In this document: positions 3,354 through 17,490 of the stretch, piece by piece | Numbering within the stretch: the stretch's first letter is position 1 | How the letters are laid out: every line of letters begins with the position of its first letter | Virus record (IMG/VR): IMGVR_UViG_3300014838_000366 | Coordinates: 1 to 20,909 of that record | DNA: 20,909 bases | Direction: 5' to 3' (one strand) | Source: a virus | Program-made: the position numbers and the translations under genes | Notes under the pieces: model-generated | The model's database searches: none | What the model was told of the DNA's origin: nothing | The model's input: the letters and a program-made list of their open reading frames with translations, nothing else

Positions 3354-3595
3354 GCTTGTTCAACGTTCCAAACCAAGTTGCTATCACCAGCGAGTCCTAC
3401 AAAGTTTCAGTAATCTGGGGTCAGTTATTTACCAACATAACGAATCTGTTGAACCTGGGCTACCCTCAGCCGGCGGCGAATAGTTCGACTCCCCAGTCAG
3501 TAACGATACCAATTGGTAAACTCACCACAGGCGGGATGAACGGTTCACTAACCTTCACCAATGGGCTTCTCACTTCAGCAGCAATCCCGACATGA
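3350..3595 (+). CDS. Small phage protein of unknown function (81 aa)
   Basis: An 81-residue protein translationally coupled at both ends: ATGA overlaps at 3350 with the gene-10-like gene and at 3592 with the cupin gene. The N-terminal half has amphipathic helix character (SVIWGQLFTNITNLLNLG). The C-terminal half is Ser/Thr/Gly-rich with short strands. No membrane segment, cysteine or catalytic motif is seen and the family is not recognised. Its place in the tail cluster suggests a virion component such as a small tail or fibre accessory protein, but this is unsupported beyond context. Confidence 0.6.
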   Translation: MSLFNVPNQVAITSESYKVSVIWGQLFTNITNLLNLGYPQPAANSSTPQSVTIPIGKLTTGGMNGSLTFTNGLLTSAAIPT

Positions 3596-4041
3596 ACAAC
3601 CTGGTGATGAAGGACAAAATTCAAAGGCTCAAAGAGGCTTGTGTTAATTTGCCACAAACCGCCTTGCCCACTGAGCACTTCTTCCTTGATGGAATGTACC
3701 TTCGCCAATGCTTCATTCCCAAGGGCACAGTTTTTGTTGGCCGGGTTCATAAGAAAGATCACTTCTTCATGATTCTCCGTGGAGCCGCTGAAATCACTAT
3801 GGACGAAAAGGTTATTCGTGTAGTTGCGGGGATGATCTTTCTATGCCCACCTGGTACTCGCCGTGCAGGCGTCACGCTTGAAGATACTGTCTTCGCTGGG
3901 GTAATTCGCACAGATAAGACTGATATAGCAGAGATTGAAGAAGATCTCGCTGTCTACGATCCTACTGCTCGATTTGGCGTTGGCAATATAATGCTGCCGC
4001 CGTTACAGGAGAGATTAAATGAATCGTTTAAGAAAGACTGA
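3592..4041 (+). CDS. Cupin-fold domain protein
   Basis: A 149-residue protein whose residues about 35-108 follow a single-domain cupin: strand GMYLRQCFIPKGTVFVGRVH, then DHFFMILRGAAEI, a turn with EKVIRVVAG, and FLCPPGTRRAG followed by strands. Cupin motif 1 is recognisable with His53 and His57, but the usual Glu is not evident. Motif 2 has G80 and P86-P87-G88, but Arg residues where the metal-binding His normally lies. Metal binding may therefore be weak or absent, pointing to a structural or ligand-binding role rather than classic dioxygenase-type catalysis. The gene lies between tail and ejection protein genes and overlaps the next gene by 23 bases. The fold call is from pattern; the role in the virion is unknown. 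Confidence 0.6.
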   Translation: MNNLVMKDKIQRLKEACVNLPQTALPTEHFFLDGMYLRQCFIPKGTVFVGRVHKKDHFFMILRGAAEITMDEKVIRVVAGMIFLCPPGTRRAGVTLEDTVFAGVIRTDKTDIAEIEEDLAVYDPTARFGVGNIMLPPLQERLNESFKKD

Positions 4042-4621: not shown

Positions 4622-5727
4622 TGGCTGACGACCTTGCTTCAATCTTCACCGGCGCTGTCCAAGCGGGGCAGCAGTATCAACTGGGCAAGTTCCAGATTCA
4701 GGAAGCTCCGGTTAAGCTGGAGAGCGAAAAGCTAGCGCTGAAAATTGCTCAACAAGACTTCGATCGGCGGCAACAGATGGCGAATATGCTTGCTGGAACG
4801 AAGATTCCTCAGGGCAGTGACCCACTGGAAAACGCACAGAATACTCTGTTGACTATGGGTTCGATTGCCGCGCAGACAGGCTTTCCAGAGGAATCAGCGC
4901 AGTTCATTTCTAAGGGTTCGATAATTGCAGAGCAAAGAGAGAATGCAGAATATAAGCAATATCAAGAAGCTATGGGTAGAGCAGAGTTCTCGGAACAAAT
5001 TCTGGGTAGTGTGACTGACGAGGCGAGCTGGAAGGCGGCTCATGCTTATATTAAACTAATGACAGGAAAACCAAGTGCGTTGGAAGGACAACCGTATTCA
5101 CCGGAGTTGGTTGCGACGCTAAGGGACGCAACAACTAAACATCTCGACGCTGCAACAGCAAAATACAGGCAAGCACAGACAGAGCGGGAAAAGACTTTGA
5201 TGCAAGCTGATCTAGCATCGGTAGATCAGCGTAAGTCTGCTGCGCATTTGAACAACGTTAAAGCCGGTACAGCAACTAAGAACGGTGGTTTAGGGATCGT
5301 GGCTAAGCCACAAAACATCTCAATGGTGGCTAGGGCGATAGTCAAAGATTCTAATGACGTTATATCAATGACTGATGCTATGGTTGCCGCCGATCCTATT
5401 GCCCTCGATGTTGAACAAAAGATGCGTACCATCAGTGGTCTGACTCGCCCCCAAGCGATCAAGATGGCGATTAACGAAGCCAAACAGAGCGGAGCCTTGG
5501 CTCTCAACAAGCCTGGACGAGTGGCACCTGGTTCATTACCGACTAGGGCATTGCCGTTACCTGCAGATCCCAGCAAATACGAAGATCAAAAGTGGTACAT
5601 TGGCAAAGCTGGTGAAGTTCGTTGGTATGACAAAGAAACCAATCGTTTTTATAAAAAAGGTGAAGGTCCAGATCCTGGCGAACCTGAGCCAGAGGATAAC
5701 GCTTTAACTCAGGAGTCACCTGAATAA
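4621..5727 (+). CDS. Putative internal virion protein (helical)
   Basis: A 368-residue, mostly helical protein starting in a TAATG overlap with the previous gene. The N-terminal 60 residues are Gln/Leu/Lys-rich with coiled-coil character (GQQYQLGKFQIQEAPVKLES onward). Residues about 160-215 form a second charged helical region (EKTLMQADLASVDQRK). Residues about 315-345 contain a small aromatic motif with KWYIGKAGEVRWYD, and the C-terminus is Pro/Glu-rich and probably disordered. No catalytic motif, signal peptide or membrane helix is visible. Position and composition suit a middle-sized ejection/core protein (role analogous to T7 gp15 or P22 gp20), which is inference; the sequence family is not recognised. 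Confidence 0.5.
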   Translation: MADDLASIFTGAVQAGQQYQLGKFQIQEAPVKLESEKLALKIAQQDFDRRQQMANMLAGTKIPQGSDPLENAQNTLLTMGSIAAQTGFPEESAQFISKGSIIAEQRENAEYKQYQEAMGRAEFSEQILGSVTDEASWKAAHAYIKLMTGKPSALEGQPYSPELVATLRDATTKHLDAATAKYRQAQTEREKTLMQADLASVDQRKSAAHLNNVKAGTATKNGGLGIVAKPQNISMVARAIVKDSNDVISMTDAMVAADPIALDVEQKMRTISGLTRPQAIKMAINEAKQSGALALNKPGRVAPGSLPTRALPLPADPSKYEDQKWYIGKAGEVRWYDKETNRFYKKGEGPDPGEPEPEDNALTQESPE

Positions 5728-6899
5728 TGGATACAGGGCTATCACCTGCTGAATTTGCTGACTCCCCTGTGAAGCCGAAAACGAAAGTTTCACCAGGTCT
5801 GGCACCGAGTGACTTTGCTGGTGCCCCGGCGGCAAAGCCTCAAAACTCAGGTCCCTCAGCCTTTGGGCAATTCCTTGAGCATTCCAAATCCGCGCTTCGG
5901 GCGGCTAACCAAGCCTCAATGGAGAACCCAATCAAAGCTCGAGAGGCGCTGTTCTCTACAGGGGTTAAGGCTATCAGTAGTTTCGCCTCCTTTGCCGCCT
6001 CGGGTGTAGCCGCCTTGGCTAAGACTATGACTAACCCAGGAAAGAACGTCGATGAAGCTGTTGGGCACTTTGTCAACAACCAGGAGAAACTTGAACAGCA
6101 GCTGCAGATAATCAACTCTGCCCCCGAAAACAAGCAGGAAGAAGCCTTTACAGGATTGTTGAATATGCTGCCCGAGGGAATCAAAGCGATTGGTGATACT
6201 GTGTATGACAAGACGCGAAGCGCGTTGTTGGCTGCAGGTGCGCAGGCTTTGACCACGCTGTTAACTCTGTCGCCGGAGTCAGTGGTTAAGGTGCTCAAAG
6301 GCGGCTATGGTAAAATCACGCCGACAAAGACTTCGACTGCGATTGACGAGTTAGTTGCTACGCAGCCCGAAGCCGCTGAGACCATTGTAATGCATATTGA
6401 ACAGGTTGATCCTGAGCTGTCCAAGGAGATGAAAAAGCAAATCCGCGAAGGGCGCAAGGCTACCAAAGACGATCTTAGAAAGGTTGGCCGCCGAGCCGGC
6501 GAGGCAGATTTCCAGGAAGATCTTCATGAAGGATTAACCATCAAGGGTAGAGATGTGGGTGCACCTGGGACTGATTTAACAGTTGAAGATGCTCAACGTC
6601 ATGCAGAGATGCTTCGTCGCATGGAGGCGGAGAAGGCAAGGTCCCCAACTCCGCCGCCGGTGAATCCTGAGAGAATCTCTGCCTCAGTACGAACAGCGGT
6701 GAGGGAGGGGACAGAGGCAATAGGGAGGCCGGTGAAGGTGGAGGTTAAGCCCTTTCCAGGGATTCCAGCTGATAAGTCATTGACAGAGTGGAATAACGAT
6801 AAGAAAGATGTTCTCTACTTCGACCAGGGCAAGCCTGTCACCCGCGGCGAAGTCCACGACGCCGCCAACCCCGAGGACTTCCTGCCGCCATGTCAATAG
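5727..6899 (+). CDS. Putative internal virion protein with duplicated N-terminal motif
   Basis: A 390-residue protein with AGGAG at 5711-5715 and a TAATG overlap start. Two copies of a short motif open the protein: GLSPAEFADSPVKP (residues 4-17) and GLAPSDFAGAPAAKP (residues 24-38). An Ala-rich, moderately hydrophobic helical region follows (about 80-100), then a helical stretch of charged residues (about 205-300) and a Pro-rich linker. The C-terminal 60 residues look like a small globular segment with KDVLYFDQGKPVTRGEVHDA. No enzymatic motif is seen. It overlaps the next gene by 10 bases. It is probably part of the ejection/core complex by context. A fusion with the next reading frame by a -1 shift is possible but not demonstrated. 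Confidence 0.5.
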   Translation: MDTGLSPAEFADSPVKPKTKVSPGLAPSDFAGAPAAKPQNSGPSAFGQFLEHSKSALRAANQASMENPIKAREALFSTGVKAISSFASFAASGVAALAKTMTNPGKNVDEAVGHFVNNQEKLEQQLQIINSAPENKQEEAFTGLLNMLPEGIKAIGDTVYDKTRSALLAAGAQALTTLLTLSPESVVKVLKGGYGKITPTKTSTAIDELVATQPEAAETIVMHIEQVDPELSKEMKKQIREGRKATKDDLRKVGRRAGEADFQEDLHEGLTIKGRDVGAPGTDLTVEDAQRHAEMLRRMEAEKARSPTPPPVNPERISASVRTAVREGTEAIGRPVKVEVKPFPGIPADKSLTEWNNDKKDVLYFDQGKPVTRGEVHDAANPEDFLPPCQ

Positions 6900-9412
6900 T
6901 CTGTGATCCGAATCGAAACAAGCGCTTTCCTGGCGTCGAAATAGCCAAGGGTAAGATGGAGGTTCTCTACTCTGGGTTGATCGAGACTCTCAACCCTGAA
7001 GCTAAAGGACCAATTGCTAGGGCTGCCGGGTCGGAGATTGCTCAAAACTTTTTCGAAGAAGCCCATCGGCAACACGTTCGTTGGGACAAGCCCGCTTGGA
7101 CACGGCGGACGCACTTTATGAAGTTAGGCAAAGAGGCCTCCATCGAATTCCTTAAACAGATGGAGAAGGGGGTTCAGTTCAAGAACCCCGAGCTTGAACA
7201 GTTCCGTCTGGCCTATCGTGCGTGGACGGATGAAATGATTAGGCAGGACGAGCTTACCTATGCTAAAGCGGGTAAGGACTTGCCTTACGATGCACTCGAG
7301 CACTACGTACCGCGACAGTTCGAAGATGGGCCGGCGGTGATCAAATTCTTTGACAACAAATACAAGGGACGAAAGTGGGCCGATCCGAGGTTTATCCGCA
7401 CGCGCAAGTTTGAGCTGCTGCAGGAAGCACTAGATGCGGGGTATTCGCTTAAAGAGTGGAACCCTGAAGTCATCATGCAACAGCGGCAATTTGCTTCGGA
7501 CATAGCTGAACTGCGCTCTCAATTACTCGACGACATGACTAAGAGAGGAATTGCAATCGAAGCTTTTGAAGGGCAAGAGATTCCCCCTGACGGATCGTAT
7601 CACCGCGAAAGCTGGAGAGCTCCAACAGGGCAGCGGTATTGGGTTAAGGAAGAAGCTTATCCGGTAATGAAGACAGCGTTGGATTCAAAGTCATTATGGA
7701 ATCTACAAGAGACTCCTTTACAGAGAGCAATCTCTACAGGGTTTCGCGGGTGGATGGGGGCGAAGAATAGATTAGTTCCCTTCAAACTAGCATGGAGCCT
7801 CTTTCATCCTTTCCACGTCACTCACATTGACGCGGCGGCAGAGCTGACTCGACTCCAGGTTCTAATGGCTGGAAACCCTACGTCGAAGAACGTAGCCAAT
7901 ATGCTTCAGATGTTTGTTACCGGGACGCCAACTAACCCGCTGGGTGCAACAGGAATTGCCTATCGCGCATGGTGGGACAATCCCAAAACTGGATATCCAT
8001 TACTGCGAGCCTTTCAAGGCCGCCGGTCGTTTAGTTCTCTAAGTGAAGTTGACAAAGCCGCCTATCGCGATATGGCCGAGGGTGGACTGGTGCCTACACG
8101 GCCCAAGGAAGAAACTGATAATGCGGTTCAGAAATTCAAGGATGCAATTTACCAGCGTCATGTAGGGCGAGCAACGTTTGAACTTCCTTGGGTCGTCATG
8201 CACGGCTTAGGGTATCCGATCTACAACCTCTGGATTCCAACTCTCAAGATCGCTTCGTACCTCAAAGATACCAAGGTTTGGAGAGAGTTAAACCCGACGG
8301 CTCCGGATTTCACCCGCCAAGAGGCCTTTCGTCGAATCGCGCGGCATGTCGAATCACGCTATGGAGAAATGAACTACCAGGCAATGTTCATGAATCGTTA
8401 TCTCAGAGACATAGGTGTAGCGTCGAACTTGAGTTTAGGCTGGAATCTAGGGTTTTTGGATGTCTATGCCGGCGGCGCAATTGATGCTGTGAAGACTGTT
8501 ACCACTAAGGATTCGGTCAAATCAAAGCTCGCTAAGGGACAGTTTGACAAACCTCTTTATCTATTGAATTACACAATTTCTGGCCTGGCGATTGGCGGAT
8601 TGATGACTTACTGGCTGGCCAAACAGATGCCCCAGTCAATCTTGGATTATACCAATCCGCTTAGCGGCGAGAAAGACTCTAACGGGAAGCCGATTCGTCT
8701 AAACACTCCAATGTTCACCCATGAGTTTTCTTCCCTCTACAAGCACGCCCAGCAAGAAGGCATCGCGGCCGGCGTGTCGGATTTCCTCTGGGCCAAAGGT
8801 TCAGGCATCTACGAAATGGCTAAGTCTTCATGGACTGGGATTAACTCACTGCATCAAGAGATTCGAGACGGGTATGCTCCAGCATACAAGCAACTCGAAG
8901 AAACCTTAGCCTACGAACTCGGTGACCTCAACGCTATGAGCCTGAAGGCTCTCAACCTCGCTCCTGACGCAAATGCAGCTAAGATGCGAGCGTTGGCTGT
9001 AGTTGGCTTCGGCCCGGCGGGCAAGTACATTAGCGAGTCTGCGGTTGAAGGAAAGATCTCTACTGAATTCAACAAGACACGGCCGCAGCAACAATCCTAC
9101 AACTCTGTCCAACTAGGTAAGGATACCAAGCAATTGAGAGAACTGTATAAACGCGACGATTCGACCTATGAACAGTTTTTGGAAAGCACTAAACAGAAAT
9201 ACGGCATGGATGATAAAGACATTCATCGAATGGAAAAGATGTTTGGAAAGGAGGAAACCTTCGATCCCTCGGTTTATATGTTCTCCAAGCTCGAGTACGC
9301 AAAACAATTGAATTTGCTTAAAGAAATCAAAGAGCCCGAGGAACGCGAGCGCTATCTGGCTCATGTAGGGAAGGAGAAGCGGAGAAAACTTGAAGAGGCG
9401 TTGGAGGAATGA
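6890..9412 (+). CDS. Large internal virion protein, polyvalent-protein-like
   Basis: An 840-residue protein. Visible parts in order: a helical N-terminal region (about 20-130) with many charged residues; an EHYVPRQF motif (137-144), seen in large polyvalent phage proteins; a mixed region to about 300; a helix-rich region containing FKLAWSLFHPFHVTHIDAA (298-316); and a hydrophobic segment YLLNYTISGLAIGGLMTYWL (557-576) that could insert in a membrane. A G-E-K-D-S-N-G-K-P-I-R loop follows (593-603), then a Lys/Glu-rich C-terminus. These resemble large polyvalent proteins with LPD-type domains, and in position and size the protein parallels the biggest podovirus ejection protein (T7 gp16-like role). 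No transglycosylase catalytic motif was found. The ribosome site before ATG 6890 is weak (GAGG at 6873-6876). The function is inference. Confidence 0.5.
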   Translation: MSIVCDPNRNKRFPGVEIAKGKMEVLYSGLIETLNPEAKGPIARAAGSEIAQNFFEEAHRQHVRWDKPAWTRRTHFMKLGKEASIEFLKQMEKGVQFKNPELEQFRLAYRAWTDEMIRQDELTYAKAGKDLPYDALEHYVPRQFEDGPAVIKFFDNKYKGRKWADPRFIRTRKFELLQEALDAGYSLKEWNPEVIMQQRQFASDIAELRSQLLDDMTKRGIAIEAFEGQEIPPDGSYHRESWRAPTGQRYWVKEEAYPVMKTALDSKSLWNLQETPLQRAISTGFRGWMGAKNRLVPFKLAWSLFHPFHVTHIDAAAELTRLQVLMAGNPTSKNVANMLQMFVTGTPTNPLGATGIAYRAWWDNPKTGYPLLRAFQGRRSFSSLSEVDKAAYRDMAEGGLVPTRPKEETDNAVQKFKDAIYQRHVGRATFELPWVVMHGLGYPIYNLWIPTLKIASYLKDTKVWRELNPTAPDFTRQEAFRRIARHVESRYGEMNYQAMFMNRYLRDIGVASNLSLGWNLGFLDVYAGGAIDAVKTVTTKDSVKSKLAKGQFDKPLYLLNYTISGLAIGGLMTYWLAKQMPQSILDYTNPLSGEKDSNGKPIRLNTPMFTHEFSSLYKHAQQEGIAAGVSDFLWAKGSGIYEMAKSSWTGINSLHQEIRDGYAPAYKQLEETLAYELGDLNAMSLKALNLAPDANAAKMRALAVVGFGPAGKYISESAVEGKISTEFNKTRPQQQSYNSVQLGKDTKQLRELYKRDDSTYEQFLESTKQKYGMDDKDIHRMEKMFGKEETFDPSVYMFSKLEYAKQLNLLKEIKEPEERERYLAHVGKEKRRKLEEALEE

Positions 9413-10731
9413 GAGTTCTAATCATGGATATAGAAGGCGGCGGAACTGGGATCAATCTTGCCCTCCGCGCCCAGGACGATGGACATGATGTGAAGTACTG
9501 GATGCCTACGAAGGGCGGCAAGCCGCGGCCCTATGGCGATGGTTTGTTGACCAAACCACTTGAGTGGGAATCCTCTATGGACTGGGCAGACCTCGTAGTT
9601 CTTACAGGAAATAACAAATATGCCGATGCGCTTGCTAGGTACTTTGGAAAGGGTTATCCTATATTTGGCGCAAACATTAAAGGGGCTGAACTTGAACTTG
9701 ACCGTGGGAAGGGACAAGAAATCCTTAAGCGTTATGGCATTAAGACCATTCCCTATGAAGTTGTTGCGAGCCCTGAAGAGGGAATTGCGCTTATCAAAGA
9801 AACAGGAAAAGCCTACGCGATGAAGCCTTGGGGAGGGACCGAAGATTGTGCGTTGACCTATGTCAGCCGCGAACCTGACGACGGGATCTTTACTCTTGAT
9901 AAATGGAAGCGTGAAGGTTTATTCAAGGGCCAACTGATGATGCAGGAGAAAATCGACGGAATCGAAATGGGCATTGCTGGATGGTTTGGCCCAGGCGGTT
10001 GGTCAGCAGCATTGGAAGAGAGCTTCGAGCATAAGAAATTCCTTAACGACGATCTTGGGGCGAACACCGGGGAGATGGGAACGGTTATACGTCACGTTAA
10101 GCAGTCTAAGCTGTTTGACTTCATACTGGACCCCATCACGGACTATCTGCACTCTATCAACTATGTGGGAGACTGTTCAGTCAACTGCATGATTGATCCC
10201 AAGGGCAAGATTTGGCCGATGGAGTTTACAACAAGACTTGGGTGGCCAGACTTTAACATTCGCCAAGAAGTCTTTAAAGGAGATTCGGTTCAGTGGATGA
10301 AGGATTTGATTGATGGTAAAGATACTTTGGAGGTTTCATCAAAAATTGCTTTGGGCGTTGTTATGGCTCATGGAGATTTTCCTCATGAGCATGACGGGGC
10401 AGATGTGTGGTCTGACTTCCCTATCTATGGGATTACAAATGAGAATTATACCCACCTGCATTTTCAACAAGTGAAAGAGGGTAAAGGATTTTTGTGGTCA
10501 AAAGGCAAACTCGCGCGGCCGACCATGATGTTGACTGCAGGAACGTATGTGATGGTGGTTACTGGAGCTGGAGGAACAGTTGAAGCTGCGCAGAAGAAGG
10601 CATACGATATTGCTTGGGAGATTAAGTGGCCGAGCAATATCTTATTCCGAACGGATATTGGGAAGAGATTGAAAGACCAACTCGATGAACTGCACAAGCA
10701 CGGGTTTGCTGAAGGAATGAACTATGCCTGA
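9409..10731 (+). CDS. PurD-like ATP-grasp protein (phosphoribosylamine-glycine ligase family)
   Basis: A 440-residue protein with the three-part layout of GAR synthetase. There is an N-terminal Rossmann-like strand (MRVLIMDIEGGGTG), an ATP-grasp core from about 95 to 300, and a C-terminal domain ending in VMVVTGAGGTVEAAQKKAYD and RTDIGKR, which matches the PurD ending closely. Core features include LKRYGIKTIPYE (106-117), candidate ATP lysine K139, EKIDGIEMGIAG (180-191), HKK (208-210), GANTGEMG (217-224) and MEFTTRLGWPDF (271-282). PurD enzymes join glycine to phosphoribosylamine using ATP in purine synthesis. Here the usual R-[LF]-G-D-P-E signature is RLGWPD, the metal-ligand Asn of E-x-N is Thr274, and the Gly-Lys-Gly ATP loop is not evident. 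A different acceptor or weak activity is possible. The start overlaps the previous stop (ATGA). Confidence 0.75.
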   Translation: MRVLIMDIEGGGTGINLALRAQDDGHDVKYWMPTKGGKPRPYGDGLLTKPLEWESSMDWADLVVLTGNNKYADALARYFGKGYPIFGANIKGAELELDRGKGQEILKRYGIKTIPYEVVASPEEGIALIKETGKAYAMKPWGGTEDCALTYVSREPDDGIFTLDKWKREGLFKGQLMMQEKIDGIEMGIAGWFGPGGWSAALEESFEHKKFLNDDLGANTGEMGTVIRHVKQSKLFDFILDPITDYLHSINYVGDCSVNCMIDPKGKIWPMEFTTRLGWPDFNIRQEVFKGDSVQWMKDLIDGKDTLEVSSKIALGVVMAHGDFPHEHDGADVWSDFPIYGITNENYTHLHFQQVKEGKGFLWSKGKLARPTMMLTAGTYVMVVTGAGGTVEAAQKKAYDIAWEIKWPSNILFRTDIGKRLKDQLDELHKHGFAEGMNYA

Positions 10732-11134
10732 AGGTATAGTTAAAGGCCCAGCAGATTTCTTCCGCCCTGGCGACTGGAACGTCGTCTGCTCGATCTGCGG
10801 GATCAAGGGCAAGGCGAGTGAGATGGTCAAGAATTGGCAAGGCTTGTATCGCCATCCTCGGCATAACGAGCCGAGGCAGCCTCAAGACTTTGTACGTGGT
10901 ATAGCGGATATTCAAGCGCCGCCCTGGGTTCAGCCGCCGGAAGATCTATATGTGCAAATTTGCACGCCGGCTGGGATCTCGGCAATCCCGGGCTATGCTT
11001 TGCCTGGGTGTATGATTCCAGGGCGGCGCATCGCAATTTTACCTTCAGGTGCGGTGATTACTGGCACCTTGCCGCCCGTTCCAGGCGGGGGCTATACCGT
11101 TCCTGACGCACCAACAGGAGTTCATGCAGCATGA
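10724..11134 (+). CDS. Zinc-binding (CxxC-HxxH) virion-associated protein with fibronectin-type C-terminal stub
   Basis: A 136-residue protein, ATG 10724 with AAGGA at 10712-10716. Residues 17-57 read DWNVVCSICG, then KASEMVKNWQGLYRHPRH and EPRQPQDFV. Cys22, Cys25, His44 and His47 form a plausible CxxC-HxxH zinc site. Related-looking small phage proteins usually have a second Cys pair and the same RHPQDFVRG ending. The middle (about 75-120) is Pro/Gly-rich. The last residues, TVPDAPTGVHAA, are the opening strand of a fibronectin type III domain whose remainder is the start of the next frame at 11131. The gene therefore may be the N-terminal part of a longer fibre protein, either fused by a -1 shift or split by a real stop-restart. 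No enzymatic function is assigned. Confidence 0.65.
   Translation: MPEGIVKGPADFFRPGDWNVVCSICGIKGKASEMVKNWQGLYRHPRHNEPRQPQDFVRGIADIQAPPWVQPPEDLYVQICTPAGISAIPGYALPGCMIPGRRIAILPSGAVITGTLPPVPGGGYTVPDAPTGVHAA
11116..11120 (+). promoter_or_regulatory. Possible restart ribosome site for the fibre frame
   Basis: AGGAG lies 10 bases before ATG 11131. Because the same bases encode the conserved Thr-Gly-Val of the fibronectin opening strand, the site may be accidental. It is what would allow stop-restart rather than a frame shift at this junction. Confidence 0.35.
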
Positions 11135-16715: not shown

Positions 16716-17005
16716 GTACAAGTGTAGGTCAAGCTTTTGTAGCAATGATCGAGAGCGATCTGGCGACAGTGGGCGGTGCGCCGCTGGTGGCCTTTATACA
16801 GGCTGAAATTGCGGCGAAGGGGAACTTTGCGCTGCAGGCGGCGAATCTATTGCAGTTCCAAGCCGGAGCGCCGGCTATGGGAATCGCGTTGGGAGTTGAG
16901 CTGGAGCAACAGGTGTTGCAGTTGGCTTTGGGCAAGGTTCAAGCAGCAATCGCTGCCAAGACTTCGCCGTCGTCGACTTCCACAATTTACCCTACCACAT
17001 CATGA
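16712..17005 (+). CDS. Small Ala-rich helical phage protein, unknown function
   Basis: A 97-residue protein with a GGAGAT site at 16700-16705, coupled by ATGA to the holin-like gene before it and to the papain-fold gene after it. It is Ala/Leu/Gln-rich and predicted mostly helical (residues about 5-80), with no strongly hydrophobic membrane segment and a Ser/Thr-rich tail. I do not recognise the family. Its position in the lysis cluster is the only functional hint. Confidence 0.6.
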   Translation: MSTSVGQAFVAMIESDLATVGGAPLVAFIQAEIAAKGNFALQAANLLQFQAGAPAMGIALGVELEQQVLQLALGKVQAAIAAKTSPSSTSTIYPTTS

Positions 17006-17490
17006 AGCAGCTAACCTGGCAACTGGTTCGAGGGCTCGGACGAAGCTCGAGGTTGATCGGGTTTTGGGGGCTGGGGTTTTACAGCCACATCGACGTGCTC
17101 ACGCCGACAGGGATGTTGCGTGGAGCACGCTCGGACTGGATTAAAGGCATACCGCCGGGGTATATGGATAGACCTTATGATTACGAACGGTGGGAGGCGC
17201 AGACACAGTTTACCCTTGAGGTTTCAGAGGACCAGTACGACAAATACTGGAGGTATTCAGACAAGCAACTCTACAAGCCTTATGACTTTAGAGGGTTGAT
17301 TAAGACCTTTGTCTTTGGTCGTAACTGGCGGGATGACGATTCGTGGTGGTGCTCAGAGGAGGTCGCGATGAACGGCGAAGTAGCGGGAATTTGGACACTC
17401 CCGGAGCATGTGAAAAACGTTGAACCAGGGCATTGTGCTTTTCTGCTCGCCGGGAAATCAGCAGTGATTAAGGAGATTCTATGCCGCTAG
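17002..17490 (+). CDS. Putative circularly permuted NlpC/P60-like (papain-fold) hydrolase
   Basis: A 162-residue protein. The order of motifs is His first, Cys last: GFYSHIDVLTPTG with His29, LRGARSD, RPYDYERWE, KPYDFRGL (92-99), then DSWWCSEEVA with Cys117 followed by Ser-Glu. This order fits permuted papain-fold enzymes of the YiiX/NlpC-P60 permuted group, in which His lies N-terminal to the catalytic Cys. Such proteins hydrolyse amide or ester bonds in peptidoglycan peptides or lipids. It could be a second lysis enzyme or a virion-borne hydrolase. No clear ribosome site is present; the ATGA overlap suggests coupling. The fold assignment is moderately confident, the substrate unknown. Confidence 0.6.
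   Translation: MKQLTWQLVRGLGRSSRLIGFWGLGFYSHIDVLTPTGMLRGARSDWIKGIPPGYMDRPYDYERWEAQTQFTLEVSEDQYDKYWRYSDKQLYKPYDFRGLIKTFVFGRNWRDDDSWWCSEEVAMNGEVAGIWTLPEHVKNVEPGHCAFLLAGKSAVIKEILCR

Follow-up and report, generated by a model that had tools for sequence, protein, structure and literature searches.

The PurD-Like Gene and Its Late Cassette

The window analyzed here is the complete 20,909-nucleotide stretch of the viral record IMGVR_UViG_3300014838_000366 (20.9 kb), and its central feature is a gene at positions 9409-10731 that has an ATG start and encodes a 440-residue ATP-grasp ligase resembling PurD, the glycinamide ribonucleotide (GAR) synthetase. This gene and the neighboring genes at 3592-4041, 5727-6899, 6890-9412, and 10724-11134 are on the plus strand. 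The PurD-like open reading frame (ORF) called by the first-pass annotation is real. GARS_A (7e-8) and GARS_C (8e-9) both exceed the Pfam gathering scores, and the AlphaFold2 model and Foldseek matches described below are of the same kind. In the surrounding cassette, genes for a tail protein and a stabilisation protein precede a small variable gene, two genes for smaller late proteins, and that for the large protein; the ligase gene comes next, followed by those for a small protein and the tail fibre. The ligase gene lies directly 3′ of the gene for the large late protein in nearly all loci of sufficient length, and the late or virion location is conserved across the family. In the window, the ligase gene overlaps its upstream neighbor by four bases (ATGA, 9409-9412) and its downstream neighbor by eight bases, which confirms the earlier proposal of translational coupling on both sides; the upstream four-base overlap is present in 61 of the 83 ligase loci.

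Fold and Domain Composition

The AlphaFold2 model of the ligase, built with 50 family sequences, has a predicted local distance difference test (pLDDT) score of 93.8 and a predicted template modelling (pTM) score of 0.91. In a Foldseek comparison with the PDB, all 15 of the 15 best matches were GAR synthetases, with 2yw2 at the top (template modelling (TM) scores 0.75/0.78, E ~1e-28), and PurK and biotin carboxylase formed a second tier (E ~1e-17). A sequence-profile search agreed with the fold (2yw2 at 3e-38), and BFVD contained no close viral structure (top E 1e-10, query TM <0.5). On this predicted model, the ligase is an ATP-grasp protein of the PurD-like fold. The first-pass annotation had ascribed the whole GAR synthetase architecture to the protein; this is true of the fold and not of the sequence, because the N-terminal domain is unrecognisable as GARS_N. 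Briefly, GARS_A and GARS_C were found by Pfam in 50/50 ligase members and GARS_N in 0/50, and a control true PurD showed all three domains, with GARS_N at 3.5e-38. The RxDIG segment of the C domain, also pointed out earlier, is present and is common to PurD and the ligase.

Active-Site Residues

Residues were compared in an alignment of 83 phage ligase sequences and 29 true PurDs, with site numbering taken from Aquifex PurD. In the Aquifex enzyme, the ATP ligands are K103, K143, E185, E192, and K214; those for glycine are D212, R287, and E292; and Mg is bound by E100 and K214 (PMC8880213). The phage ligases have E96, R99, K139, Q179, E186, E207, K209, E222, E272, T274, R276, and W279 fixed in 83/83 sequences, and the ATP/Mg catalytic set among these comprises E96, R99, K139, E186, K209, E272, and R276. 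Because of this invariance, the residues for ATP and Mg are regarded as retained, with the replacements K103R and E185Q. Substitutions of these two types occur in other ATP-grasp enzymes. Within the gene, E96 (PurD E100; Mg/ATP) and R99 (PurD K103) are encoded at 9694-9705, K139 (PurD K143; ATP) at 9823-9825, and the segment from Q179 to E186 (PurD E185 and E192; ATP), in which Glu to Gln is fixed and the second Glu is retained, at 9943-9966.

By contrast, the glycine side and the signature positions of PurD are altered and fixed in the altered state (D212E, G227E, A230T, N285T, and D290W), the E292 position is variable, and G271N is found in 81/83 sequences. Of the glycine-binding set, only the Arg is retained; the Asp is replaced by Glu207, which is followed by H208 and K209 (PurD D212, H213, and K214; 10027-10035). 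The motif TGEMGT (10066-10083; TGGMGA in PurD) carries E222 and T225 in place of G227 and A230, and the AYSPA loop of PurD, which would follow it, is deleted. The segment EFTTRLGWPD (10222-10251; EFNxRxGDPE in PurD) retains E272 and R276, whereas N285 and D290 are replaced by T274 and W279. RLGWPD consequently departs from the R[LF]GDPEx signature (PS00184), with Trp at this position in 83/83 phage ligases versus Asp in 29/29 PurDs. The GGREHA loop of the N domain, whose R, E, H, and A occur in 100% of aligned PurDs, is absent from the phage ligases. The altered signatures reported in the first-pass annotation (T274, W279, and the Glu of TGE) were exact and extend to the entire family, and the lack of a Gly-Lys-Gly loop stands for the window, where the position is Cys147; in the family, the Lys itself is retained in 77/83 members without its flanking glycines. 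Of the core ATP-grasp residues, the two basic residues, the ribose/adenine Glu, and the acidic metal ligand are retained, and the second metal ligand, usually Asn, is Thr in 83/83.

These data bear on whether the protein is a pseudoenzyme, a virion protein in which the PurD fold has taken on a structural or chaperone-like role. The coupling of the gene inside a virion cassette, the altered metal and glycine ligands, and Cys147 in the clade of the window would fit such a role. This explanation is nevertheless rendered less likely by the invariance of the seven catalytic positions for ATP, Mg, and carboxylate across 83 divergent sequences, and the same residues occur in the cellular paralogues, which are not parts of virions. 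We consider it rather improbable.

Distinction from GAR Synthetase

The ligase and PurD (EC 6.3.4.13; TIGR00877; 1gso, 2yw2, and 2ys6) share the overall fold and the ATP-grasp core, and E100, K143, E192, K214, E283, and R287 of PurD all have equivalents in the ligase. This PurD-like fold and the RxDIG segment could indicate a true GAR synthetase, acting as an auxiliary metabolic gene (AMG) that raises host purine synthesis in infection; furthermore, annotation pipelines call phage purD genes AMGs, as in a snow-virus study listing viral purD as a purine AMG (PMC11097641; membership of the ligase family unchecked). However, the NCBIfam purD model TIGR00877 matches the window ligase at 2e-25 and 89.5 bits, far under the equivalog cut-off of 288 bits, and the loss of GARS_N, GGREHA, and AYSPA is accompanied by changes at D212, N285, D290, and E292. 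All five of the bacterial genomes with a ligase copy also encode a true PurD, which scores 471-574 bits with the same model versus 71-108 for the ligase, and neither purM nor purF was found in 18 ligase-family genomes or records of 44-57 kb. The late location of the gene also argues against a function in purine synthesis. In the tree, the ligase family and PurD are split at 100/100 support by a very long branch. These comparisons support the view that the phage ligase is not a GAR synthetase, and a true GAR synthetase appears highly improbable. The suggestion of the first-pass annotation that another substrate pair may be used has therefore gained ground, and the closest homologues are not ordinary PurDs. 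The acceptors that it gave as examples, a virion protein, a modified nucleotide, or a host-surface ligand, are hypothetical candidates. Judging from the sequence comparisons, the ligase most likely joins a substrate pair other than that of GAR synthetase.

Distribution and Cellular Relatives

A protein scan of IMG/VR identified 12 loci, of which 11 show 38-80% identity across the full length of the protein or most of it and one is a fragment (L012). A profile scan of the same database extended the relatives to at least 227 from many samples, and 80 of these 227 loci were retained. Five additional copies were found in bacterial genome assemblies, including those of Paraburkholderia rhynchosiae and Paraburkholderia sp. 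C35. A search of 50,697 phage records found a clear family member in MW202796 only (Manatee Spring; 40% identity), and among 398 Pseudomonadota genomes, a match at E <= 1e-30 was found in P. rhynchosiae only, the genome on which that search was centred, in the form of a prophage-type copy. The ligase family is therefore essentially viral. Purifying selection on it is strong, the ratio of nonsynonymous to synonymous substitution rates (dN/dS) being 0.04-0.14 for pairs with measurable dS. Matches of 21-29% identity in the phage collection were excluded as relatives, since several are annotated or evident bacterial PurDs and the records are mixed. In the same collection, hits H5, H6, H18, and H19 lie in “phage” records of 49-501 kb that carry an ordinary bacterial purD and resemble host DNA.

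That host contamination or mis-assembly placed a bacterial gene in the contig has a negligible probability. The gene also occurs outside this contig, the related loci found in IMG/VR come from many samples and show the same gene order where examined, the copies in Paraburkholderia genomes adjoin the same cassette, and phage genes overlap the ligase gene at both ends.

No match to the ligase was obtained in the PHROG search or among the PADLOC defence families, and the phage family was not described in the literature that was searched. Proteins encoded on plasmids of Halarchaeum and Roseomonas match the ligase better than PurD does (9e-46 and 2e-29, respectively), and a further cellular paralogue in Sphingomonas is frame-broken. 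This copy, on a plasmid of Sphingomonas daechungensis (L211:9938-11238), is annotated as two ORFs. The three paralogues have E207, TGEMGT, N259, and T274 (in EFTxR) in common with the phage ligases, and the two intact ones also have the loop deletion; in the tree, all three cluster with the phage ligases, apart from PurD, at 100/100. They differ from the phage ligases in being cellular and rare, in their identity of ~28-33%, in carrying Tyr or Asn at the position of W279, and in having no common gene context. The Roseomonas gene is found among genes for a type III polyketide synthase (PKS), a methyltransferase, an FAD monooxygenase, and an aminotransferase. Since such neighborhoods are not common to all cellular relatives, no single substrate is indicated. 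When viral contigs were scanned for relatives of the Halarchaeum protein, no match was obtained.

In 2011, the haloarchaeal “extra” PurD-like proteins Hlac_1553 and rrnAC0307 were judged not to be GAR synthetases because GARS_N and the Mg sites are missing and both the Asp of R[LF]GDPE and an N-terminal loop are lost (PMC3261824). These losses are the same as in the phage ligases when compared by the published description, from which we infer that the two proteins are orthologous to the ligase family. The phage ligase family is a new viral branch of uncharacterised PurD-like ligases. To our knowledge, no reaction is known for any cellular PurD-like paralogue that is not a GAR synthetase, and none was found.

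Accessory Status Within the Lineage

In the cultured Alcaligenes phage vB_Af_QDWS535, a related cassette has a lysozyme directly after the large gene and no ligase; contigs L190, L197, and L204 also lack the ligase, although in them both the large gene and the small gene that follows it are complete. The clear ligase-free cases are these three contigs and OK172329 only. L153 and L007 are one and the same contig. In approximately half of the cassette-bearing contigs with enough downstream sequence the ligase is present, a rough figure because truncated contigs inflate the ligase-free counts. With the same cassette present but the ligase gene missing in at least four relatives, the gene is accessory and therefore cannot be an essential virion-building step of the whole lineage.

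Proposed Function and Mechanism

The gene quite probably represents a phage branch of a PurD-derived, neofunctionalised family of ATP-grasp carboxylate-amine ligases that would be expressed late and use an acceptor other than phosphoribosylamine; its chemistry, substrates, and role are proposed as follows. With ATP and Mg, the enzyme would phosphorylate a small carboxylate to an acyl-phosphate; this carboxylate would be held by the retained Arg276 and is probably an amino acid or a similar compound. Attack on the acyl-phosphate by an amine different from phosphoribosylamine would then yield an amide. The ligase would be made late, its translation coupled to that of the large late, probably ejection, protein. 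Because the gene is late and translationally coupled, the product is most likely of use in late infection or in the particle; what is modified could be, for example, a virion protein, the envelope, or a small molecule, and each of these targets is compatible with the steps above.

Several points weigh against this proposal: the Thr in place of the metal-ligand Asn could weaken catalysis, the location in the late module may mirror expression timing only, no partner gene is linked to the ligase universally, and the gene neighborhoods of the cellular relatives in Halarchaeum, Roseomonas, and Sphingomonas differ.

Two narrower versions of the proposal may be considered. It is possible, although we advance it tentatively, that phages of this lineage employ the ligase in a post-translational modification, coupling an amino acid or similar group through an amide bond to one of their own late (ejection or tail) proteins; if the target is indeed a virion protein, this would be a dedicated phage enzyme modifying its own particle. 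Alternatively, and again as a tentative possibility, the ligase may make a diffusible small molecule or modify the host envelope (e.g., against superinfection) and not the particle. The accessory distribution within the lineage and the biosynthetic-type neighbors of the Roseomonas paralogue (PKS, methyltransferase, monooxygenase, and aminotransferase) are consistent with this version, and amidoligases of other phages are proposed to modify the cell wall according to work cited in PMC10580990. It is weakened by the fact that no transport or tailoring gene constantly accompanies the ligase in the phages and that the overlap is with the gene for a probable virion protein.

The ATP-grasp/amidoligase sets of LUZ24-like and OM43 phages are likewise phage-encoded and have putative substrates, but they include a shorter ATP-grasp protein (291 residues in UFV-P2), belong to an early-gene module, and have amidoligase and glutamine amidotransferase partners of a kind not seen with the ligase (PMC3890496, PMC10580990). 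Overall, the sequences point to a viral enzyme family that is widespread and strongly conserved and in which the ATP-grasp engine appears intact and the substrate side changed. Annotation as a purine gene would misread the ligase as an AMG, and annotations such as the snow-virus purD deserve re-examination. The ligase reaction, if found, would in addition account for the PurD look-alikes of cells, which have been unexplained since 2011.

Neighboring Genes and Further Observations

The large late protein upstream of the ligase is encoded in two frames in the window, with an N-terminal part at 5727-6899 and a C-terminal part of 840 residues at 6890-9412, assigned by comparison with the homologous one-piece proteins of relatives. 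The latter are continuous (1180-1689 residues). The split reflects either an error in sequencing or a genuine interruption. The first-pass annotation had named this neighbor an ejection protein; by its size and position it is probably of the ejection type, whereas PHROG and Pfam searches with it gave no match, nor did a DNA-level search of cultured phages with its gene. A fixed upstream partner protein was considered and dropped, as the large protein splits into clusters 10, 13, 29, 35, 41, 50, and 59, unjoined by the comparison used, while the overlap persists. The downstream gene (10724-11134) encodes a 136-residue protein whose family (cl7) also occurs in ligase-free cassettes.

The slot after the stabilisation protein varies by phage and constitutes a second place for modifying-type enzymes in the ligase cassette: a cupin in the window (3592-4041), a GNAT acetyltransferase, an Asp/Asn beta-hydroxylase-like protein, and a sulfotransferase-like PRSGSSW protein, with the last three types represented among L069:4915-5367, L080:1764-2351, and L020:5349-5852. 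The cupin is a possible partner of the ligase. As constant partners, the cupin, GNAT, and hydroxylase-like enzymes were rejected; GNATs also occur in a ligase-free cassette. In phages of this cassette type, a GroES-like co-chaperonin is encoded soon after the gene in the portal position (L013:23757-24092; OK172329:3531-3872). Finally, a 162-residue protein at 17002-17490 of the window is labeled enoyl-CoA hydratase-like by PHROGs at only 6.7e-6, and by eye it looks more like a papain-type (YiiX/NlpC-like) fold.

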